Shown in pieces: positions 5,669 to 14,198 of a DNA stretch of 15,133 nt. Within the stretch, counting starts at the first letter, position 1, and each line of letters begins with the position of its first letter. Where the stretch lies: contig PKTO01000351.1 in the NCBI GenBank assembly GCA_002869095.1, positions 1-15,133 on the forward strand, given 5' to 3'. Both the position numbers and the translations under genes were made by a program. A model generated the notes under the pieces. That model saw only the letters and a list, made by a program, of their open reading frames with translations. It was not told the DNA's origin and made no database searches. Source of the stretch: Clostridiales bacterium (GTDB lineage: Bacteria > Bacillota > Clostridia > Peptostreptococcales > BM714).

Positions 5669-5910
5669 TAAAAAACCCCCGAGCCAAAGCTCAGGGACGA
5701 ATTAACCGCGGTGCCACCCAGATTACAGAATATTTTCTGCCACTCTCCGCTTTAACGCAAGCATACGGAGCACCCTAAGTTTTTTCAGGTGCCCGGCTCC
5801 AAGGTGATCCGCATAAACCGTTCATTTGCAATCTTTCACCAATCGATTGCATCTCTGCCAACACTCCGGTCATGCCGTCCTTGTCATCGCCTTTTGTCCT
5901 ATTTATACCT
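5669..5910 (-). promoter_or_regulatory. T-box riboswitch leader of ileS, specifier AUC (Ile)
   Basis: Read on the minus strand, the conserved T-box core TGGCACCGCGG lies at 5706-5716 inside the antiterminator. Stem I can be traced by hand: AAGG pairs with CCTT at the base, GCAT/ATGC and ACCG/CGGT sit above, and TGCAATC/GATTGCA forms the distal arm. The 3' side of the internal loop reads GGATCA, putting ATC (5806-5808, an isoleucine codon) followed by the usual A directly before the CCTT strand. This is where a specifier belongs. A stem III hairpin lies around 5770-5800. Known mechanism: uncharged tRNA-Ile pairs with the specifier and with the T-box bulge, stabilises the antiterminator and allows ileS transcription. 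Confidence 0.95.
5670..5697 (-). terminator. T-box conditional terminator upstream of ileS
   Basis: On the minus strand CCCTGAGC pairs with GCTCGGGG (one U-G pair) around a TTTG loop and is followed by GTTTTTT. The stem begins about 10 nt after the T-box core, so it is mutually exclusive with the antiterminator. Because no other terminator follows aroEK, this element also faces read-through from the aromatic operon. Confidence 0.92.
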
Positions 5911-5914
5911 TTCC

Positions 5915-5943
5915 ATAGTATAACAGAACATGTTTGTTGTCAA
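5915..5943 (-). promoter_or_regulatory. ileS T-box promoter (sigma-A, extended -10)
   Basis: Minus-strand consensus -35 TTGACA at 5938-5943 and -10 TATACT at 5917-5922 (15-nt spacer, with TGT directly before it as an extended -10). The overlapping TACTAT at 5915-5920 gives a 17-nt spacer. The TGA stop of aroEK (5940-5942) lies inside the -35 hexamer. Confidence 0.8.
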
Positions 5944-7235
5944 AATATTTTTTTGAGCATATTCTGTATCTCGATAGCCTGCAGTGCCTCGTTTCCCGCA
6001 TCCGCAACCGTAAGATCAGCCGATTGCCTGTAAATTTCCTCCCTCTCTTCATACAGCTTCCTCAAATCCCCTTGGTCCTTCAGCAGGGGCCTGCCTCCGT
6101 CTTCCATCGACCTCCTGATCGAATCGAGCGACCGGTTCAGATATATGAGTGTTCCGTTCAATTTAAGGTCCGCCACGTTGTCCGGATCAAGTATCGAGCC
6201 TCCGCCGGTGGCCAGCACAATATTCCTTCTGTTTCTAAGCGACTTTATCGTTTCTCTTTCAATTTTCCTGAAGCCTTTCTCTCCCCGCGATTTGAATATT
6301 TCAGTTATGGGCCCGAATTTTTTTTCTATCATTTCATCGACATCAATGAATTCGCGGCACAAGAGCCCTGCGAGGCGCCTGCCTGCCGAGCTCTTGCCGC
6401 TCCCTGGCATTCCGACCAGCACCGGATTCATGTTTTCATGGAAAAAGGATTCAATCAAGCCTTTCTCCACTTGACCGAGGCTGACTCCATTCCATATCTC
6501 CTGTGCCTTGCAAGCCTGCGCAACCAGCATTGAAAGCCCGCCCGCCGTGCGGCAGCCCTTTTTCTCCATCTCCTGCAGAAATATGCTTCTCATAGGATTG
6601 TATACAAGATCCATTGCCATGGAGGCATTTTTAGCGATGCCTGCATCTATTGGGCTTTCATCCGTTTCCGGAAACATTCCGCACGGCGAGCAATTCACAA
6701 TAAGGTCCATTTTCCCTATGGCAGACTCGTTCTTGCTTTCAATAACCTGGAAGGTTCGAAGCTTCTTCATGGCTTCCCGCCCCGACCTGCTTAAAAACCA
6801 TACTCGCCCGGTCCTTTGCCTGAGCCAATATGCGGCGGTTTTCGCAGCTCCTCCCGTCCCTATGACCAAGGCGCGTGTTCCGCTGTCTATTTCCAGTTTG
6901 CAGAGCTCCGCCATTTTCCCGAAGCCGTATATGTCGGTGTTGAAGCCTTTCATCCTGCCGCCTTCAATCTTGACCGTATTCACAGCTCCGATCGCTTGGG
7001 CTTCCGGAGACAATTCATTCAAAAGCGGAATTATTGCATTCTTATATGGAATTGTGACGTTGAATCCGTCAATGCCCGAATCCGCAAGCCTTTTAACATC
7101 ATCGCAAAAACGATCTTTCCCGATTTCCACAAGCTCATATGTACCGTCCATGCCGATTTTTTCAAAAATCCTGCTGTGGATTTCCGGAGACAAACTATGG
7201 GAAAGCTTTTCTCCTATCAGAGCGTATCTACCCAT
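5940..7235 (-). CDS. aroEK: Bifunctional shikimate 5-dehydrogenase / shikimate kinase fusion
   Basis: A 431-residue fusion of two consecutive pathway enzymes. Residues 1 to about 262 are AroE, which reduces 3-dehydroshikimate with NADPH: SHSLSP shikimate site, NVTIPYK with the catalytic Lys, GAVNTV, GFNTDIYGF with the catalytic Asp, nucleotide loop GTGGAAKTA, and GGLSMLVAQA. Residues about 270-431 are AroK, which phosphorylates shikimate with ATP: Walker A GMPGSGKS (275-282), DVDEMIE, FRKIE, ATGGGS, and lid GGRPLL. Both halves look complete, with almost no linker. The open frame continues upstream, but AAGGAGGAG lies just before ATG 7235 and MGRYALIG is the natural AroE N-terminus. It overlaps the chorismate mutase gene by 8 nt and is the last gene of the operon. 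Domain assignments are secure. The fused state is read directly from one uninterrupted frame. Confidence 0.95.
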   Translation of the reverse strand: MGRYALIGEKLSHSLSPEIHSRIFEKIGMDGTYELVEIGKDRFCDDVKRLADSGIDGFNVTIPYKNAIIPLLNELSPEAQAIGAVNTVKIEGGRMKGFNTDIYGFGKMAELCKLEIDSGTRALVIGTGGAAKTAAYWLRQRTGRVWFLSRSGREAMKKLRTFQVIESKNESAIGKMDLIVNCSPCGMFPETDESPIDAGIAKNASMAMDLVYNPMRSIFLQEMEKKGCRTAGGLSMLVAQACKAQEIWNGVSLGQVEKGLIESFFHENMNPVLVGMPGSGKSSAGRRLAGLLCREFIDVDEMIEKKFGPITEIFKSRGEKGFRKIERETIKSLRNRRNIVLATGGGSILDPDNVADLKLNGTLIYLNRSLDSIRRSMEDGGRPLLKDQGDLRKLYEEREEIYRQSADLTVADAGNEALQAIEIQNMLKKIF

Positions 7236-7503
7236 TCGGCTCCTCCTTGATTTCTTGAAGAAGCCTGCTTTCCTCGAATATCCTGTCATAAACGCCTGAA
7301 ATGGATTTCTCAAAGCCCGGAAGGCTCGCCTTTGCAAGCCGGCTTTTTATTTCTTCCTCCCTGCCGGAAACAAGCACGGCAGCACCCTTTTCCGCCTTGA
7401 GTTGACCAACTTCAACAGACAGAGCGAACCTCCTGTTCAGCATCCCTACAATTTCCCCGTCTATCTCGTCTATTTTTTCTCTCAGTTTTTTCAATTCATC
7501 CAT
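7228..7503 (-). CDS. Chorismate mutase, AroQ type, stand-alone
   Basis: A 91-residue all-helical chorismate mutase converting chorismate to prephenate, the branch point to Tyr and Phe. Against the E. coli AroQ domain the spacing of active-site residues is kept: R8, R25, K36, R48, E49, S79 and Q83 match E. coli R11, R28, K39, R51, E52, S84 and Q88. The residue at the D48 position is Val45. No prephenate dehydratase or dehydrogenase domain is attached. The dehydrogenase is encoded separately upstream (tyrA). GGGGAGG precedes ATG 7503, which overlaps the aroC stop by 8 nt, so translation is probably coupled. The 3' end overlaps aroEK by 8 nt. Confidence 0.93.
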   Translation of the reverse strand: MDELKKLREKIDEIDGEIVGMLNRRFALSVEVGQLKAEKGAAVLVSGREEEIKSRLAKASLPGFEKSISGVYDRIFEESRLLQEIKEEPNG

Positions 7504-8587
7504 TTAAAGCCTCCCCTTCCATTTGGAGGTCAAGCAGAGCCAATGCCAGCGCAGCCTCTACTGCCGGAATCGCCCTGACAGCTATGCATGGATCGTGCCT
7601 TCCCACAACGGAAAGCCTTGCGGTTTGTCTGGAATCCATGTCTATCGTTTCCTGCTCCTTGCCTATGGATGGAGTCGGCCTGAATGCCGTTTTGAAAACA
7701 ATCGGCATTCCGTTGGTAATTCCTCCGTTTATGCCTCCGCTGTTGTTGGTGCGCGTACCGATTGACTTTCCATTCATGAAAAAGGAGTCATTCGCCTCCG
7801 ACCCTTTCATGTCCGCAAATCCGAAACCCTTTCCGAAATCGACTCCCTTCACTCCCGGAATCGAGTAAAGAAGACTCGACAAAACGCTTTCGACCGAATC
7901 AAAGAAAGGTTCCCCTATCCCCGCAGGAACTCCAACGGCGGCAGTCTCTACAATGGCGCCTACTGAATCTTGGGATTTTTTTATTTTTTCCAAATGGACG
8001 GCAGCCTTTTCTTCAATGCCTTCTTTCAAGAAAGGCATTTTCATGCCTCGCAGGGTTTTCAATTTTCCCGGAGATATTTCCGTTTCAAACGGTTGGTCCT
8101 CGACTTGACCCATCTTAAGCAAATGACTGCCTATTTCTATGCCCCGGCTTTCCGATAGAACGGCTTTTGCCAAAGCCCCGGCGAAAACCAAAAATGCCGT
8201 CAGCCGACCCGAAAAGCGTCCGCCTCCCCTATGGTCTCCAAATCCATTGTATTTGACCATGGATACATAGTCTGCATGGGACGGTCTTGGCTTCTTTCTC
8301 ATTTCTTCATAGTCGTCTGATCTGGTGTCCTTGTTTCTGAAAACAACAGCAAGAGGGGCTCCGGTAGTCTTGCCTTCGAAAAGGCCGCTTATGATTTCAT
8401 ATGAGTCGTCTTCCTTCCTTTTTGTAGCAAGATTTCCGCCCGGCTTCCTCCTCTGCAATTCGAATTCGATCAAATCGGCCGGAAAAGCCATCCCCGGCGG
8501 CAGTCCGTCCACTACTCCTCCCACACATGTTCCATGAGATTCTCCGAATATTGTAAGCTTTAAATTTCTACCCCATGTCGCACTCAT
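7496..8587 (-). CDS. aroC: Chorismate synthase
   Basis: A 363-residue flavin-dependent enzyme that makes chorismate from 5-enolpyruvylshikimate 3-phosphate by anti-1,4-elimination of phosphate. Signatures in order: FGESHG near the N-terminus, LQRRKPGG, RPSHADYVSMVKYNGFGDHRG, GGGRFSGR, then TNNSGGINGGITNG and the C-terminal HDPCIAVRAIPAVEAALA. The frame stays open to 8650, but ATG 8587 opens the standard MSATWGRNLKLTIFGESHG and is preceded by GGGGGTG about 6 nt away, so it was chosen. It overlaps the end of aroA by 20 nt and the start of the chorismate mutase by 8 nt. Full length and unambiguous. Confidence 0.97.
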   Translation of the reverse strand: MSATWGRNLKLTIFGESHGTCVGGVVDGLPPGMAFPADLIEFELQRRKPGGNLATKRKEDDSYEIISGLFEGKTTGAPLAVVFRNKDTRSDDYEEMRKKPRPSHADYVSMVKYNGFGDHRGGGRFSGRLTAFLVFAGALAKAVLSESRGIEIGSHLLKMGQVEDQPFETEISPGKLKTLRGMKMPFLKEGIEEKAAVHLEKIKKSQDSVGAIVETAAVGVPAGIGEPFFDSVESVLSSLLYSIPGVKGVDFGKGFGFADMKGSEANDSFFMNGKSIGTRTNNSGGINGGITNGMPIVFKTAFRPTPSIGKEQETIDMDSRQTARLSVVGRHDPCIAVRAIPAVEAALALALLDLQMEGEALNG

Positions 8588-9866
8588 GAATTTCACCCCC
8601 CAATTCCTTAAAGTCATTGACAAACTCCGGATAGGACTTTCTGATAGCATCCATTCCTTCTATAACAACGGGCTCTTGGCAAACCGTTGATGCAACGGCC
8701 AGAGCCATCGCTATCCTGTGGTCGTTGTGGCTCCAAACCTTGACTCCGCCCCTCAGGGTTTCAACCCCTTTAACAACAAGCCCGTCCTCTGTCTCGACGA
8801 TCATCGCTCCAAGCTTGTTGAGCTCCTCCCTTGTTGCTTTAAGCCTGTCCGACTCCTTGTATCTAAGCCTTTCCGCATTCGTTATTGTCGTTGTACCTTC
8901 AGCCAAGGCTGCTGCGACTGCCATTATAGGCACTATGTCGGGGCAGTCCGAGGCATCCATTTCAATGGACTTCATGCTTGATTGCTCCGCAGTCATCGAC
9001 CCCTGCGTTTCGAGAAGCCTTCCGCCCATTCTCCTGAGCAATTCTACCGCAGCCCGGTCTCCCTGAAGGGAATCGGGCTTTAAGCCCTCCATCTCGACTT
9101 TTTCTCCTATTAGGCCGGCAACCATCCAAAAGGCAGCCTGCGAATAGTCTCCTTCCATCTCGACATCTGCGGGACGATAGCTTTGATTTTCGATGGAAAA
9201 GCTATTGTAGCCGTCTCTATCCACCTTGACCCCGAAGTCTTCCTGAACTCGAATCGTTATGTCGACATAATTCCCCGACTCAAGCGGGCTTTTCAATGCT
9301 ATTTCCGAAGGGCCTCCCGCAATGGGAAGCGCAAGCAAAAGCCCTGTGACGAATTGCGAGCTCACATTTCCCTCGAGGCTGTATTTGCCGGCTTCAAGCC
9401 TTCCTTTGACAGTCAAAGGCAATTTGCCCCCATCAGTCTCAAACTGTATTCCCTTTTCCTTGAAAATCCTATAATAATCGTCCATGGGCCTTTCAGGCAA
9501 TTTGCCCCGCCCGACAAATTCAAATTCTTCTCCCGTCGCCAATGCCAGCGGTATTGAAAATCTGAGAGTCGATCCCGATTCCGCGCAATCTATGGTTTTT
9601 CTCGTTTTCCCAAGATATCCCTTGCCCGAAACGACCAGGTCCGACAATTTGCCATTTTTGCAGGATTCGGTTTCCGCAACTTCCGCGCCGAAAGCCCTTG
9701 CGGCTTCGATTGTTGCCGATATGTCTTCCGAAAGAACCACATTCCTGATTTTAGAAACGCCTTCCGCCATTGCCGCGCAAAGGATCGCCCTGTGGGTTTG
9801 ACTTTTTGATGTCGGCACGTGTATTTTGCCCTTTAGTTTCCCTGGAAATATTTTCACCTTGTCCAT
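8568..9866 (-). CDS. aroA: 3-phosphoshikimate 1-carboxyvinyltransferase (EPSP synthase)
   Basis: A 432-residue enzyme that transfers the enolpyruvyl group of PEP to shikimate 3-phosphate; the glyphosate target. Seen: PTSKSQTHRA near the N-terminus, CAESGSTLRF, ERPMDDYY, SSQFVTGLLLA, EGDYSQAAFW, DCPDIVPIMAVAAA, NAERLRYKESDRL, and C-terminal HNDHRIAMA. At the region equivalent to the E. coli NAGTAMRP loop the sequence is ESGSTLRF, which keeps Gly at the Gly96 position but has Phe at the Pro101 position. Inhibitor sensitivity cannot be read from this alone. Start: ATG 9866, with AGAGG about 6 nt upstream, 2 nt after the aroB stop. An in-frame TTG at 9872, overlapping the aroB stop, is less likely. 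Confidence 0.96.
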   Translation of the reverse strand: MDKVKIFPGKLKGKIHVPTSKSQTHRAILCAAMAEGVSKIRNVVLSEDISATIEAARAFGAEVAETESCKNGKLSDLVVSGKGYLGKTRKTIDCAESGSTLRFSIPLALATGEEFEFVGRGKLPERPMDDYYRIFKEKGIQFETDGGKLPLTVKGRLEAGKYSLEGNVSSQFVTGLLLALPIAGGPSEIALKSPLESGNYVDITIRVQEDFGVKVDRDGYNSFSIENQSYRPADVEMEGDYSQAAFWMVAGLIGEKVEMEGLKPDSLQGDRAAVELLRRMGGRLLETQGSMTAEQSSMKSIEMDASDCPDIVPIMAVAAALAEGTTTITNAERLRYKESDRLKATREELNKLGAMIVETEDGLVVKGVETLRGGVKVWSHNDHRIAMALAVASTVCQEPVVIEGMDAIRKSYPEFVNDFKELGGEIHECDMG

Positions 9867-9868
9867 TT

Positions 9869-10942
9869 TCAACCTCTTTCCTCCGCAAAGAAGGCTTCGA
9901 GCCCTTCGATCGGCACTCTATGTATGAAAGCCTCTCCGATTCTTTTAAGCAAAACCAAGTTCAAGCATCCGTCAATCGTCTTTTTATCCTGCCTCATTAT
10001 GTCCAAAGATTCCTTGCCCGCCTGGATTTTACTGAATGAACCGGTGTCGAATCCCAAAGCGGAAAGTGTTTCCTCTATTTCTACGGCGGTTCCCGGTTCA
10101 GTAAAGCCCCTCGCTTCGCTCAGGCGGGTTATCTGAAGCATTCCGCATGCCACAGCCATTCCATGGCTTATGGCTTCATATCCCTCCATTGTTTCGAGCA
10201 CATGGGCGATTGTATGCCCGAAGTTAAGAAGCATTCGCCGACCCCTGTCCTTCTCGTCTTCTGCAACATACTTCATTTTAATCGTAAGCGCCTTCTCAAC
10301 ACAAAATCCGGCATTCCTTTCCAAAAACTCGCCCGGAACTATTTTCTTCATATACATGAAGAAATCCTTGTCGCCTATGCATCCGTATTTTGCCATTTCA
10401 GCCATTCCGTCGAGCATCGTTTCCTTGCCCAGCGTCTCCAGAAAGGACTTGTCCGCGAAAACAGCCTTGGGATGATGAAACATACCAACAAGATTCTTTC
10501 CCGCCTCAAGATTCACCGCAGTCTTACCGCCGACCGAACTGTCGACCTGCGCCAAGAGCGTGGTCGGAAGGTTTACATAGTCCATTCCCCTTTTGAATGT
10601 CCCTGCGGCAAAACCGGCTATATCTCCGACTACTCCACCTCCCACAGCAACCAGCAAGTCGTCCCTGTCAGCCTCCATTTCACAGAGGCGGTTGTAGACC
10701 ATTTCAAGTGTTCTCAAAGACTTGCTCGACTCGCCGGAAGGTATTGATACAACCCTTTCCTTGGAAAACCCGTCGAATTCTTTTTCAATGCGGCCGCCGT
10801 GGATTCTCAGGACATTCTCATCGATTATGAAAAGTGCCTTGCCGTATCGGCTTTCCTTCATGAATCCATTGAAATCCATGGATGCGTCCCCTACAAAAAG
10901 CGCCGTTTCAGATTCTTTTAAATCAACATCAATAATTTTCAT
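9869..10942 (-). CDS. aroB: 3-dehydroquinate synthase
   Basis: A 357-residue NAD- and metal-dependent enzyme that cyclises DAHP to 3-dehydroquinate. Seen: GGGVVGDIAGFAAGTFKRG (nucleotide site), PTTLLAQVDSSVGGKTAVN, AGKNLVGMFHHP, GMAEMAKYG (Glu metal ligand), LNFGHTIAH (His ligand) and AISHGMAVA (His ligand). All are in the usual order and spacing for the family. ATG 10942 lies inside the last codons of tyrA (14-nt overlap) with AGGAG about 11 nt upstream, a slightly long spacing that fits translational coupling. Second shikimate-pathway enzyme by reaction, third gene of the operon. Confidence 0.97.
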   Translation of the reverse strand: MKIIDVDLKESETALFVGDASMDFNGFMKESRYGKALFIIDENVLRIHGGRIEKEFDGFSKERVVSIPSGESSKSLRTLEMVYNRLCEMEADRDDLLVAVGGGVVGDIAGFAAGTFKRGMDYVNLPTTLLAQVDSSVGGKTAVNLEAGKNLVGMFHHPKAVFADKSFLETLGKETMLDGMAEMAKYGCIGDKDFFMYMKKIVPGEFLERNAGFCVEKALTIKMKYVAEDEKDRGRRMLLNFGHTIAHVLETMEGYEAISHGMAVACGMLQITRLSEARGFTEPGTAVEIEETLSALGFDTGSFSKIQAGKESLDIMRQDKKTIDGCLNLVLLKRIGEAFIHRVPIEGLEAFFAEERG

Positions 10943-11771
10943 GTTCGGCGAGACTCCTTTTCTTTTCGTTTGTTTTCTCCAGAAGGTCGTAAACCGATCC
11001 GTAGTCGTCCTTTTCTATCATGTTCTTGAGTCCAACGAGGCTGGACATGAAATCATCCAAGACCTCCGTTACGTTCATTTTATTATTTTTTATGATTTGA
11101 GTCCACAAATCAGGGTTTATATCCGCAATTCTTGCCAAATCCCTGAAACTTCCTCCATGTATTTCAAAATCATTGCCGTTGAATGCTGTCAGGAATGCCG
11201 ACGATATGAGATGGGGAAGGTGGCTTACTACAGCCACTCTGCGGTCGTGTTCACCCGGAGGCATTTCGATTATCCTTCCTATTCCCGCCAGCTTTAAGAC
11301 ACTCTTCAATTCTTGCATCTGTTTCTTTCTGTCAGGCTTCGTATCTATGAGTATATAGCTGGCTCCGGAAAACATTTGAGGAGAGGCTTTTTCATGGCCT
11401 CTGCCCTCTACCCCGCAAAGGGGATGTCCTCCTATGCGGCAAAGTCCTTCCGCCTCGGCTTCTATGCGGCTGCACAATTGACCTTGTATGCCTGAAATAT
11501 CGGTTACTATGGTATCCTTGCCGATATCGTTTCTGTGAGTTCTTATGAATTCGAGAATCTCATCGGGATAGAGGCAAAGGAATATTATATCGACATCGCA
11601 GGCTGCGTCGAAGGCTTCCATGCCCTCGTCTATATATCCGTTTGAAAGAGCATTTCCTATGGCTTCGGGGTTTGTGTCGACCCCGGTCACTCTGAAGCCT
11701 GCGTTCGTTTTCATTGCCCCCGCAAGCGAGCTCCCCATAAGCCCCAATCCTACAACAGTGATGTTCTTCAT
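10929..11771 (-). CDS. tyrA: Prephenate dehydrogenase
   Basis: A 280-residue NAD(P)-dependent enzyme that oxidatively decarboxylates prephenate to 4-hydroxyphenylpyruvate, the committed step to tyrosine. Seen: Rossmann motif GLGLMGSSLAG at the extreme N-terminus, Asp at the end of strand 2 (GVDTNP, favouring NAD), TDISGIQ where many relatives have DVGSVK, GGHPLCGVEGRG, VSHLPHL with the catalytic His, and a helical C-terminal dimerisation region (SFRDLARIA, LWTQIIKNN). There is no chorismate mutase or ACT domain, so direct feedback on this enzyme through an ACT domain is not expected. ATG 11771 overlaps the aroF stop as ATGA, with GGGGAGG 9 nt upstream. Its place directly after aroF fits a tyrosine-responsive operon. 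Confidence 0.94.
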   Translation of the reverse strand: MKNITVVGLGLMGSSLAGAMKTNAGFRVTGVDTNPEAIGNALSNGYIDEGMEAFDAACDVDIIFLCLYPDEILEFIRTHRNDIGKDTIVTDISGIQGQLCSRIEAEAEGLCRIGGHPLCGVEGRGHEKASPQMFSGASYILIDTKPDRKKQMQELKSVLKLAGIGRIIEMPPGEHDRRVAVVSHLPHLISSAFLTAFNGNDFEIHGGSFRDLARIADINPDLWTQIIKNNKMNVTEVLDDFMSSLVGLKNMIEKDDYGSVYDLLEKTNEKKRSLAEHENY

Positions 11772-12787
11772 GCGGAAAAGCCTCCCCTTCTAAAGGCCTC
11801 CATGTTCCTTATGCTTTGCATAAGATTTTCGAACCTTTCGGGCTTGAGCGACTGTTCCCCGTCGCAAAGGGCTTCCTTGGGAGAATTATGCACCTCTATC
11901 ATGAGTCCGTCCGCCCCGGCTGCTATTGAGGCAAGCGCCAAGGGTTCAACAAGCCACCAGTATCCTCCCGAATGGCTCGGGTCTACAATTACCGGCAAAT
12001 GGGTTTTCCTCTTGAGGACAGGTATCGCGCTTATGTCCAGTGTGTTTCTCGTCGCGTTTTCAAATGTCCTGATGCCCCTCTCGCATAAAACAATCTTTTC
12101 GTTGCCGCCGGCCGCTATGTACTCCGCCGCCATGAGAAAATCCTTTATCGACGCCGACATTCCTCTTTTGAGCAAAACCGGCTTGTCGAGGGAGCCGACC
12201 TCTTTGAGAAGTTCGAAATTCTGCATGTTCCTTGCGCCTATCTGGATCATGTCTATTTCGCTCGCGTGTTCGTCCAGTTGCCTGACCGACATTATTTCCG
12301 TTACTATAGGCAGTCCGGTTTCCTTCTTTGCCTCCAGTAGAAGTTCTATTCCGCCCTCTCCAAGTCCCTGGAAACTGTATGGAGATGTTCTGGGCTTGAA
12401 AGCTCCTCCCCTCAGCAAATCGGCCCCGGCCTTTTTTACTCCCATTGCAGTATCAACCATCTGGTCTCTTGTCTCAACGGAGCAGGGTCCGGCTATTACC
12501 GCAAAATTGCCGTCTCCTATTTTCCTTCCGGCGACGTCCACAACCGTATCGCAGCTCTTGAACATTTTGTTGACCTTCTTGTAGGGCTCCTGTATTCTTA
12601 CTATCCGGTCGATTCTTTCATCCGAAAGATTGAATCTGTCTTGGAAGGCTATGGTGTCCCCAACCAATCCTATTATAGTCAGCTCGTCTCCTTTGGAAAC
12701 ATGCGGCGTGAAACCCTTTGCCGCTATCTCCTCTTTCAAGTTCTCCATTTCGCAATTCGAAATTCCCTTTTTCAAGATCAGTATCAT
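11768..12787 (-). CDS. aroF: 3-deoxy-7-phosphoheptulonate (DAHP) synthase, type I-beta with regulatory N-domain
   Basis: A 339-residue enzyme that condenses PEP and erythrose 4-phosphate, the first step of the shikimate pathway. About 70 N-terminal residues form the ferredoxin-like regulatory domain of the Thermotoga-type enzyme, which binds Tyr/Phe for feedback inhibition in that family. The barrel shows AGPCSVE, KPRTSPYSFQG, QIGARNMQN, LLKRG, ERGIRTFE, TRNTLD and DPSHSGG. The four metal ligands fall at C102, H272, E298 and D309, identical in numbering to the Thermotoga maritima enzyme. ATG 12787 is preceded by AAAGGGG about 8 nt away. First gene of the operon, behind a leader-peptide attenuator, so control is likely both transcriptional (attenuation) and allosteric. 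Confidence 0.97.
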   Translation of the reverse strand: MILILKKGISNCEMENLKEEIAAKGFTPHVSKGDELTIIGLVGDTIAFQDRFNLSDERIDRIVRIQEPYKKVNKMFKSCDTVVDVAGRKIGDGNFAVIAGPCSVETRDQMVDTAMGVKKAGADLLRGGAFKPRTSPYSFQGLGEGGIELLLEAKKETGLPIVTEIMSVRQLDEHASEIDMIQIGARNMQNFELLKEVGSLDKPVLLKRGMSASIKDFLMAAEYIAAGGNEKIVLCERGIRTFENATRNTLDISAIPVLKRKTHLPVIVDPSHSGGYWWLVEPLALASIAAGADGLMIEVHNSPKEALCDGEQSLKPERFENLMQSIRNMEAFRRGGFSA

Positions 12788-12801
12788 TTTTATTCCCCTT
12801 T

Positions 12802-12836
12802 CAAAAAAATAAATGAGGACCTATAAATAGGTCCTC
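12802..12836 (-). terminator. Attenuator terminator in the aroF leader
   Basis: A perfect 10-bp inverted repeat, GAGGACCTAT/ATAGGTCCTC (12815-12836, 2-nt centre), is followed on the minus strand by ATTTATTTTTTTG. It lies between the leader peptide stop and the aroF ribosome binding site, so transcription ending here would not reach aroF. A competing fold that sequesters its 5' arm can be drawn (see the antiterminator entry). Confidence 0.9.
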
Positions 12837-12869
12837 TGTCCAATCGCCATTCGATTATCAACTTAAGGA
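12832..12869 (-). promoter_or_regulatory. Candidate antiterminator hairpin of the aroF attenuator
   Basis: Hand pairing on the minus-strand RNA: UCCUU (12869-12865) with GAGGA (12836-12832), GUU (12862-12860) with GAC (12840-12838), and UAAUCG (12857-12852) with CGAUUG (12846-12841) around an AAUGG loop. GAGGA is also the 5' arm of the terminator, so the two folds exclude each other. UCCUU begins 6 nt after the leader stop codon, within the footprint of a terminating ribosome. The pairing is visible in the sequence. Its role is inference. Confidence 0.6.
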
Positions 12870-12874
12870 ATCAT

Positions 12875-12991
12875 TTATGTCCGCAAATTTCCATATTCAT
12901 TTCCACGACTAATAACCGGCGCATAATAATAGCCCCAGCTAAAAAATAGATATGAATATGTGCTTTGCGTATTTCTGTTTTGCTCTCTCAT
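12875..12991 (-). CDS. Aromatic-rich leader peptide of the aroF operon (38 aa)
   Basis: A short ORF of 38 codons: ATG 12989-12991, with AAAAAGGTGATC giving an AAGGTGA ribosome site about 6 nt upstream, ending TAA at 12875-12877. Residues 11-25 read TYSYLFFSWGYYYAP. In all there are 6 Tyr, 2 Phe and 1 Trp, eight of them in positions 12-23, including Tyr-Tyr-Tyr at 21-23 (nt 12923-12931). The ORF lies between a strong promoter and an intrinsic terminator directly before DAHP synthase. This is the arrangement of a ribosome-sensing attenuator in which shortage of charged tRNA-Tyr (or Phe/Trp) stalls the ribosome. The peptide itself need not be stable or functional. An arrest peptide sensing a free ligand is an alternative reading. 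No named family was recognised. Confidence 0.85.
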   Translation of the reverse strand: MREQNRNTQSTYSYLFFSWGYYYAPVISRGNEYGNLRT

Positions 12992-13024
12992 AATGATCAC
13001 CTTTTTAAATAATAGTTAAAAATA

Positions 13025-13052
13025 AGTATAACAGTTTAAAAACGACTGTCAA
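13025..13052 (-). promoter_or_regulatory. Promoter of the aroF operon (sigma-A, extended -10)
   Basis: Minus-strand -35 TTGACA (consensus) at 13047-13052, 16-nt spacer, -10 TATACT at 13025-13030 with TGT directly upstream. The -35 begins only 3 nt after the stop codon of the aldo/keto reductase. The expected start near 13018 gives a leader of about 230 nt before aroF. Confidence 0.85.
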
Positions 13053-13055
13053 GCT

Positions 13056-14198
13056 CTATTCCTTTATTTCTCTCATCTTTTCGTCAACCAGCTCCAAAAG
13101 GTCCATTATCTTGAGGTCCTGGGGACACTTTGTTTCACATAATCCGCATTTTCTGCAATTCGAAGCCCTGTTCTCTTCCGTGAAGAAACCCCAATACACT
13201 CGGTTGGCCTCTTTTGGCGTGTCAAACATGAACATGTCGTTGTAAAGCTCGAGACTTCTGGGAATCCTGACCCCGTATGGGCAAGGCATGCAGTATCCGC
13301 AAGCGGTGCATTGGATTTTGATGTACTTTCTGTACATGTCCCTGACTTCGCCAATTATTTCATGCTCCTTGCGGCTGAGCTTTCCCGGCTCCGCATCCGA
13401 CATTGTAAGTATATTTTCAACAACCTCTTCGAGTTCGCCCATTCCGCTGAGCACCACAGAAACTTCCGGAAAATCGGCGATCCATCTGAAAGCCCACTCC
13501 GAGGGTGTTCTTACAACATCCGCCTTGGCCCAGATTTTTTCGGCTCTTGGATTCGGCTTGACAATCTTGCCTCCCTTTAGAGGCTCCATTATAACGACTC
13601 CCAAACCTTTTGCTGCAGCGTACTTGAGGCCCTCCACACCGGCTTGGTATTCTTCATCCATGAAGTTCAATTGTATTTGGCAGAAATCCCAATCCCAACC
13701 GTCTACTATGTCCTTGAAAATATCTATTGTGTCGTGGAACGAAAAGCCTACATATCCAACTTTCCCTGACTCTTTGGCCCTTTTTATGAAATCGAAAAGA
13801 CCTGCTTCCTTAAGCTTGGGCCACCATTTTCTGTTCAGCGTATGGATAAGGTAGTAGTCTATTCTTTCGGTCCCGAGGTTCTCGAGCTGTTTGTCGAGCA
13901 GCTTGTCGAAATCATCAGGCCCGTTAACGAGCCTTGATGGCAATCTAGTCGCCAGATGGACCTTTTCCCTGTACCCGCCTGGAAGAGCCTTTCCTACGGC
14001 CTTCTCGCTCATGCCTCCATGGTATGGCCATGCAGTGTCAACATAGTTGACGCCATGATCGATTGCGTAGCGAATCAACTTTGTCGTTTTTTCCAGATCG
14101 ATGTCTTTTGGATTCCCATTGTGTGTAGGCAGGCGCATCGTTCCAAACCCCAAAAGGGATACCTCGTCGCCTATTTTTCCAAACTTCCTGTACTTCAT
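13056..14198 (-). CDS. Aldo/keto reductase with C-terminal 4Fe-4S ferredoxin domain
   Basis: A 380-residue fusion. Residues 1 to about 275 form an aldo/keto reductase barrel (LLGFGTMRLP, NYVDTAWPYHGG, DYYLIHTLN, VGFSFHD, QIQLNFMD, VIMEPLKGG). The C-terminus carries ferredoxin-type cysteines, CTACGYCMPCPYGV and CRKCGLCETKCPQ, as in the iron-sulfur AKR proteins common in anaerobes, whose physiological substrates are mostly unknown. Of the usual tetrad, D54, Y59 and H119 are present, but the catalytic Lys position in LATKLP is Arg85 (AGA, nt 13944-13946). GGAG lies 9 nt before ATG 14198. The gene is divergent from the lipoprotein gene, and its stop is 3 nt from the aroF promoter with no terminator between. 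Probably a redox enzyme. Substrate and electron partner cannot be told. Confidence 0.92.
   Translation of the reverse strand: MKYRKFGKIGDEVSLLGFGTMRLPTHNGNPKDIDLEKTTKLIRYAIDHGVNYVDTAWPYHGGMSEKAVGKALPGGYREKVHLATRLPSRLVNGPDDFDKLLDKQLENLGTERIDYYLIHTLNRKWWPKLKEAGLFDFIKRAKESGKVGYVGFSFHDTIDIFKDIVDGWDWDFCQIQLNFMDEEYQAGVEGLKYAAAKGLGVVIMEPLKGGKIVKPNPRAEKIWAKADVVRTPSEWAFRWIADFPEVSVVLSGMGELEEVVENILTMSDAEPGKLSRKEHEIIGEVRDMYRKYIKIQCTACGYCMPCPYGVRIPRSLELYNDMFMFDTPKEANRVYWGFFTEENRASNCRKCGLCETKCPQDLKIMDLLELVDEKMREIKE

Follow-up and report, generated by a model that had tools for sequence, protein, structure and literature searches.

In the enterobacterial leaders trpL, pheL and hisL, a short open reading frame (ORF) with control codons is combined with mutually exclusive RNA segments (1:2, 2:3 and 3:4) and a terminator before the first gene of the pathway. 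For aromatic genes in Bacillota, discussion usually centres on T-boxes and TRAP. Leaders of a comparable plan are described in several reports. Genetic evidence supports a leucine-rich attenuator peptide for the ilv–leu operon of Staphylococcus aureus (PMC5794164), and a histidine leader peptide, made up of a control-codon ORF and a terminator, precedes hisS/hisZ in bacilli (PMC2965389). The uORFC-13-1 motif of Acholeplasma places an upstream ORF with one or more Phe codons and a terminator before aroF, and attenuation has been proposed for it; it is reported, with 24 unique sequences, from Acholeplasma and environmental sequences only (PMC8632094). An element of Streptococcus agalactiae, gbs2033, which also precedes aroFBC–tyrA of Enterococcus faecium, is called a riboswitch by its authors (PMC4448216).

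Here we analyse the leader of an aro operon in a 15,133-nucleotide stretch of a Clostridiales genome (contig PKTO01000351.1; the whole stretch is called the window). Like the enterobacterial trp, phe and his attenuators, it has a control-codon ORF, predicted mutually exclusive segments and, ahead of the first gene of the corresponding pathway, a terminator. It differs from them in its mixed Tyr and Phe codons, in a segment 1 that precedes the control codons (in the clearest cases, judged by eye) and in a covarying hairpin formed by the codons that surround the aromatic block, and we found no sequence relation to them. The S. aureus ilv–leu peptide is likewise a case of leader attenuation in Bacillota, but it concerns leucine and another operon, and its antiterminator pairs with the U tail (PMC5794164). 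The hisS/hisZ leader has the same ORF-plus-terminator plan in the same phylum, but for histidine and genes of other function (PMC2965389). uORFC-13-1 shares the upstream ORF with Phe and the terminator before aroF and is set apart by its description, not by sequence (PMC8632094); gbs2033 is likewise an attenuator-like element before an aro operon, a likeness again of description and not of sequence (PMC4448216).

The database searches agree with the original prediction, which recognized no named family. At gathering scores, no Rfam family was found in the window leader or in the leaders of 22 other leader-bearing loci (20 loci plus L002 and L340, the last overlapping L253 of the 20), and Phe_leader (RF01859) reached 14.6 bits on the window leader against a cut-off of 55. 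T-boxes likewise answer uncharged tRNA and control a terminator, but the aro leader had no match to RF00230; within the window only the ileS leader matched. NCBIfam gave no matches at E ≤ 1 among 28 of 30 leader peptides, and the same 28 gave three single, weak Pfam matches (best E 0.037) to families with unrelated names. A literature search found no account of this leader in Clostridia; most subscription papers were beyond its reach, and an earlier description is possible. The kind of control is already known; within these searches, we found no description of the leader family, of its coding hairpin or of its spread.

On the minus strand of the window, a promoter-like site is followed by a ribosome site, a 38-codon ORF, a terminator hairpin and the aroF start codon at 12787 (Table 1), with AAAAGGTG upstream of the leader ATG. 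The window thus has a control-codon cluster in a short ORF and an intrinsic terminator between that ORF and the first structural gene. Eight of the 12 codons at positions 12–23 of the ORF are aromatic, a density reached by 3 of 5,000 dinucleotide shuffles of the 237-nt leader region, which bears out the predicted aromatic ORF between promoter and U-tailed hairpin. The leader RNA folds with z = −5.7, and none of 200 shuffles folded as low. In the sister species (G001), the ORF has equal length, the peptides are 71% identical and the terminator hairpin is the same. A repeated or mobile element was considered and rejected, because in its own genome the leader DNA is matched over its full length only once; a second match covers only 52 nt (E 0.11).

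Pfam supports the reading of the downstream genes as a shikimate operon. The ORFs overlap from aroF to the aroE–aroK fusion, and next downstream is the predicted T-box before ileS, which Rfam also recognizes. The start given for aroE–aroK is that of the listed ORF; an ATG at 7235 fits too. Upstream, an aldo-keto reductase gene with a 4Fe–4S domain (13056–14198, minus strand) ends just before the leader's promoter-like site. Elsewhere in this genome (G000:C234:3835-4575) lies a second, short DAHP synthase match that lacks the N-terminal domain, and the assembly (90.9% complete) gave no match to prephenate dehydratase or the trpE domain.

Table 1. Leader elements, aro operon genes and neighbouring T-box in the window.
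Feature	Positions	Strand	Basis
Promoter-like site, TTGACA–16 nt–TATACT, TG before second hexamer	13025–13052	−	Consensus scan, 11/12
Possible segment 1 (leader start codon with its ribosome site, AAGG..GAUCAUUAUG); complement at 12879–12865	12989–13003	−	Minimum-energy fold
Leader ORF, 38 codons plus stop, MREQNRNTQSTYSYLFFSWGYYYAPVISRGNEYGNLRT	12875–12991	−	ATG 12991, TAA 12875
Control-codon block, codons 12–23 (YSYLFFSWGYYY): 5 Tyr, 2 Phe, 1 Trp	12923–12958	−	
Conserved coding hairpin around aromatic codons (CUGGGGCU...GCGCCGG)	12912–12941	−	Covariance model R1
Predicted antiterminator hairpin (2:3)	12824–12877	−	Fold of transcript before terminator 3′ arm
Terminator hairpin (3:4), GAGGACCTA-ttta-TAGGTCCTC	12815–12836	−	Followed by U-rich tail to ~12802
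aroF, DAHP synthase, N-terminal ferredoxin-like domain	11768–12787	−	PF00793, PF18152
tyrA, prephenate dehydrogenase	10929–11771	−	PF02153, PF20463
aroB, 3-dehydroquinate synthase	9869–10942	−	PF01761, PF24621
aroA, EPSP synthase	8568–9872	−	PF00275
aroC, chorismate synthase (listed ORF, start codon unsettled)	7496–8650	−	PF01264 on 7499–8602
Chorismate mutase	7228–7503	−	PF01817
aroE–aroK fusion, shikimate dehydrogenase and shikimate kinase	5940–7337	−	PF08501, PF01202 on 5943–7247
T-box leader before ileS	5690–5896	−	RF00230, 103.6 bits (gathering score 93)

The original prediction had proposed testing whether a short aromatic ORF followed by a terminator recurs upstream of related aroF genes. 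We searched for AroF in 98 relatives (83 matched), in 291 genomes of the class (217 matched) and in named genomes, from which the best 80 of 592 confirmed stretches were taken, and scanned the 450 nt upstream of aroF. ORFs reaching 8 or more aromatic codons in 12 were present in 24/30, 13/28, 26/80 and 42/79 loci of the sample sets (105/217; the 79 are 80 extra loci minus one dropped); these figures should not be taken as unbiased frequencies, the loci having been ranked by the similarity of their aroF. After reduction to distinct regions, at least 7 in 12 was reached on the aroF-side strand in 130/214 and on the opposite strand in 9/214. Kinship inflates such counts; the shuffles and swaps used here lessen relatedness without removing it. 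The comparison is positive, and most sampled relatives have the ORF instead of lacking it or showing random codons at this place. In the other 84 regions, no ORF with at least 7 in 12 lies within 450 nt, and a few have one further upstream (L005, L006, L014 and L045). Named examples with the leader include Clostridium ganghwense, Bittarella and Angelakisella, and it also occurs in metagenome-assembled genomes labelled in their records as Pelosinus, Lachnospiraceae, Oscillospiraceae, Fusobacteria and Treponema. A leader-peptide attenuator thus appears to precede aroF in most sampled relatives within the class and, more rarely, beyond it, while being absent from Rfam, NCBIfam and Pfam; it would account for short ORFs that annotation would overlook, and predicts where Tyr and Phe control might be sought in these bacteria.

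Phe and Tyr codons are AU-rich, and AU-rich intergenic DNA could yield them by chance or low complexity, with the terminator belonging to the preceding gene; the nine opposite strands that reach 7 in 12 are what such an account would lead one to see. Against it, at least 8 in 12 was found in 0–0.4% of shuffles, on 2/217 opposite strands and at none of 60 control loci (30 prephenate dehydratase and 30 trpE-domain loci, of which two reached 7 in 12), although this last control is imperfect, as many pheA genes lie inside operons and a full 1,500-nt flank was assumed, wrongly for at least two clipped loci (L269 and L276). The promoter-like site, moreover, lies beyond the end of the aldo-keto reductase gene, and promoter and ORF both precede the terminator. 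We consider chance so improbable as to carry almost no weight.

Some leaders are of a second type (AAEYYYYYFF, FAYEYFFYFYF) that lacks the coding hairpin described below (L019, L022, L029, L030 and L206); by eye, GCAGCA near the start can, in some of them, pair with UGCUGC near the end. At L007, a T-box lies after aroF at 2573–2832, so that a T-box and a peptide leader occur near each other with the T-box outside the leader.

The attenuator reading makes a further demand on the RNA, namely that the leader contain segments competing with the terminator. Behind each of the 129 unique leaders with at least 7 aromatic codons in 12 there is a terminator candidate, the finder giving its best candidate per region. 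Four leaders were dropped from the pairing tests, two for weak terminator scores and two for terminators inside the ORF. In the remaining 125, 2:3 pairing was measured by the energy of the duplex that the stretch beginning at the aromatic codons forms with the terminator 5′ arm plus loop. Leaders paired better with their own terminator (mean −15.0 kcal/mol) than with swapped ones (−11.9 kcal/mol; permutation z −13.3), and the own terminator was better than the row mean in 88/125 and the column mean in 105/125. The ranks are modest: the median share of foreign arms as good as or better than the leader's own is 0.23 by row and 0.15 by column. Against dinucleotide shuffles, 42/125 leaders had p ≤ 0.05 (about 6 expected; Stouffer 14.5). 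The competing 1:2 pairing, between the ORF start and the same segment 2, behaved similarly (permutation z −10.4; p ≤ 0.05 in 27/125; Stouffer 8.3).

In 81/125 leaders, 2:3 could be drawn as a helix of 7 or more pairs without a break. This helix starts a median of 27 nt past the aromatic block (at least 12 nt in 66/81, less than 12 nt in 15/81) and ends a median of 26 nt short of the stop codon's last base, a spacing that suits a stalled as opposed to a finishing ribosome. By eye, one clade has a near-perfect 1:2/2:3 set, formed by CTTATTAGAAAG (codons for Leu-Ile-Arg-Lys) towards the start, CTTTCTAATGAG towards the end and ACTCATTAGA in the terminator; in other clades, different sequences make up the competing set.

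In the window alone, the predicted 2:3 partners are the stop-codon segment UAAAUGAUUCCUU and the terminator 5′ arm and loop. The by-eye guess GGUUAUUAGUC for segment 2 was given up for this stop-codon segment once the transcript before the 3′ arm had been folded. Taken singly, the window's 2:3 pairing does not surpass that of shuffled sequences (z −0.46; sister locus L002, −0.08), and its 1:2 pairing gives z −0.96 (L002, −2.1). That 1:2 pairing is uncertain: it is present in one fold and missing from the predicted fold of the transcript lacking the terminator 3′ arm. In equilibrium folding, the window's terminator stays at 0.95–0.97 at all ribosome positions tried and thus does not discriminate stalling; with the terminator so dominant, antitermination would have to be kinetic. 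An antiterminator that would exclude the terminator is supported over the family, and in the window it is predicted and not significant.

Read from the sequences, the ORF, the terminator candidate, the operon, their conservation, the family-wide, genome-specific 1:2 and 2:3 complementarity and the hairpin covariation point to a ribosome-mediated transcription attenuator controlling the aro operon of the window, a reading to which we assign a probability of roughly 0.88. The original prediction's attenuator is thereby supported, with the competing RNA segments over 125 leaders as added evidence. Translation, stalling, pausing, read-through and the amino acid sensed are steps that we infer, as follows. 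Polymerase would start at the promoter-like site and transcribe the leader, with a ribosome behind it translating the aromatic ORF. When Tyr-tRNA (and Phe-tRNA) is charged, the ribosome would reach the end of the ORF and cover the stop-codon region (segment 2), so that the terminator hairpin would form and transcription would halt before aroF. With uncharged tRNA, the ribosome would stall within codons 12–23 and leave segment 2 free to pair with the terminator 5′ arm (segment 3), allowing polymerase to read through into the operon. If no ribosome were present, the ORF start (segment 1) could hold segment 2, and the terminator would form. The conserved hairpin, whose loop contains or adjoins the aromatic codons, may act as a pause site that gives the ribosome time to catch up with polymerase; alternatively, it may be the tip of 1:2.

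A peptide core resembling SWG-FYF-SAGY is common to leaders of many families. The shared-core pattern matches 74/129 leaders, and at the nucleotide level it reads NNC-UGG-RGC-(aromatic codons)-RGC-GCY-RGY. The codon before UGG ends in C in at least 68/75 cases with a varying residue (Ser, Tyr, Phe, Asn, Thr, Cys, Ile or Gly), and the UGG position itself is written UUG, CAG, CGG or UUU in other species. Changes match across the hairpin: all three GCA codons stand opposite UUG, UUU stands opposite UAC in L017, L020, L043, L194 and L203, CAA opposite UUU in L038, and CAG opposite GUU in L070. The exceptions are UUG opposite GCU (L047 and L067) and CAG opposite GCC (L053).

We examined pairing in the 61 unique arms among the 74 pattern matches. 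Pair n6:m8 is kept in 58/61 arms (45.5 when shuffled) and n5:m9 in 48/61 (39.9 when shuffled), values that none of 1,000 shuffles reached; n9:m5 is kept in 60/61, reached by 10 of 1,000. Pairs n3:m11, n4:m10, n8:m6 and n10:m4 form in 57–60 of the 61 arms and vary so little that they offer hardly anything to test. At n7:m7 most arms have a G.G mismatch, and no signal came from n11:m3 or from the outermost three positions. The peptide pattern by which sequences were chosen prescribes G/S/D and S/G/N/C at two codons, so part of the invariance there comes from that choice. In a stricter alignment, A4 (47/61 arms, with at least three of four anchor positions, loops of at most four codons and four odd loci left out), 87.4% of cells pair, compared with 83.3 ± 0.6 after shuffling (0/500 shuffles), and the covariation score is 0.258, compared with 0.173 ± 0.014 (0/500 shuffles) and a maximum of 0.137 for slid versions. 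Only two A4 pairs are changed on both sides, which 169 of 500 shuffles equalled, and the number of pair types was reached by 44 of 500. Taken together, two to three pairs of the coding hairpin covary.

The window and its sister species provide a natural frameshift. In both, the right arm is one base short, which puts the 3′ half into another frame (YYYAPVIS, compared with YYYSAGY), and covariance model R1, which was not trained on this genus, nevertheless scores the window at 32.3 bits and the sister at 24.7 bits. The window hairpin, 1 nt shorter than the consensus, is found with E 2.4 × 10⁻⁵ in the whole genome. A frameshifted 3′ half with a hairpin that is still recognized argues that the RNA has been kept more than the peptide. 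A similar leader, AYYSFYYAPVFSTG, occurs in a metagenome-assembled genome labelled Phascolarctobacterium (L076); it resembles the frame-shifted form and is not matched by R1 at E ≤ 0.05.

These observations bear on nascent-peptide arrest. In TnaC and Erm leaders, the ribosome is stalled by the leader peptide's own sequence, and the core SWG-aromatics-SAG might act likewise, perhaps with a bound aromatic amino acid, so that stalling controls the terminator. The apparent conservation of about ten residues over many families invites this explanation. What is kept, however, is nucleotides and not residues: G/S, W/L/Q/R/F and A/F/Y/V exchange while most pairs persist, the window's genus has the 3′ half in the other frame with the hairpin still found, and L019, L030 and L206 have an aromatic run only, without this core. 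Arrest peptides of the TnaC/Erm kind have conserved residues that stalling needs, whereas residues at the conserved positions here vary. We therefore regard arrest as very unlikely and reject peptide-level selection as the main cause of the conservation of the SWG..SAG core; the leader would instead be a case of apparent peptide conservation caused by RNA structure, with the natural frameshift as evidence.

A covarying hairpin whose covariance model finds places in whole genomes could also be a translation-independent RNA switch, whether by binding an aromatic metabolite as an aptamer or by binding a protein, with the ORF incidental. Yet its loop is made of in-frame Tyr and Phe codons, many leaders without the core still keep the aromatic ORF and the terminator, and 29 of the 30 best R1 matches in the class genomes are 31 + 3n nt long, the window being the exception (the model's 31 positions favour a length of 31). 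Such a switch seems to us a shade less probable even than arrest. The ribosome-mediated attenuator remains our preferred reading, and the composition of the core qualifies what it would sense. The original prediction named Tyr, Phe and Trp. Within the 14-residue core, Tyr is present in 128/129 leaders and Phe in 127/129; Trp is present in 60/129, and because UGG is a stem element of the hairpin, Trp sensing is doubtful.

R1 also finds the hairpin away from aroF. Taking its E-values as rough, it matched in 72 of the 291 class genomes (E ≤ 0.05), 52 of the 98 relatives (E ≤ 0.01) and, across the phylum, 19 of 299 genomes (E ≤ 0.001, the window's counted). Among the 18 phylum matches besides the window's, aroF shares the locus in 11, and in 10 of those 11 an aromatic leader ORF reaches at least 7 in 12; one more match has a leader near a contig end, and six have neither aroF nor leader. 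From the class and relative searches we picked 31 R1 matches, none before a known full-length aroF. An aromatic leader was present in 14/31, with none at the match in 17/31. The 14 leaders precede chorismate mutase–shikimate kinase (5), sodium:solute symporters (2), and shikimate kinase, dehydroquinase II, aroB, tyrA, a short aroF followed by tyrA, prephenate dehydratase and a masked stretch (1 each); gene names come from Pfam for 10 and from resemblance for L260, L363 and L364.

The sister species allows two leaders of one genome to be compared. The core of its aroF leader has five Tyr and one Phe codons, whereas that of its pheA leader has no Tyr, six Phe and one Trp, its one Tyr lying at codon 3, outside the core; among aroF leaders, 1/129 lacks Tyr in the core. 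In this one case, codon content follows the gene, as the attenuator model predicts. When 20 further stretches (12 pheA and 8 trpE) were scanned for leaders, only this pheA had one.

These matches lead us to favour, with some reserve, an aromatic regulon spread through the phylum that would work without a regulator protein, through copies of one dual-coded leader element (control codons inside a covarying hairpin) placed before unlinked aro operons and pheA, tyrA, shikimate kinase and sodium symporter genes, each tuned by its Tyr/Phe codon content. If true, such a regulon would do in Clostridia what TyrR or TRAP does elsewhere. In genomes with two aroF genes (G012, G068 and G077), a leader-hairpin match precedes each copy, and the sodium:solute symporters behind the leaders at L356 and L367 are candidate aromatic amino acid transporters.
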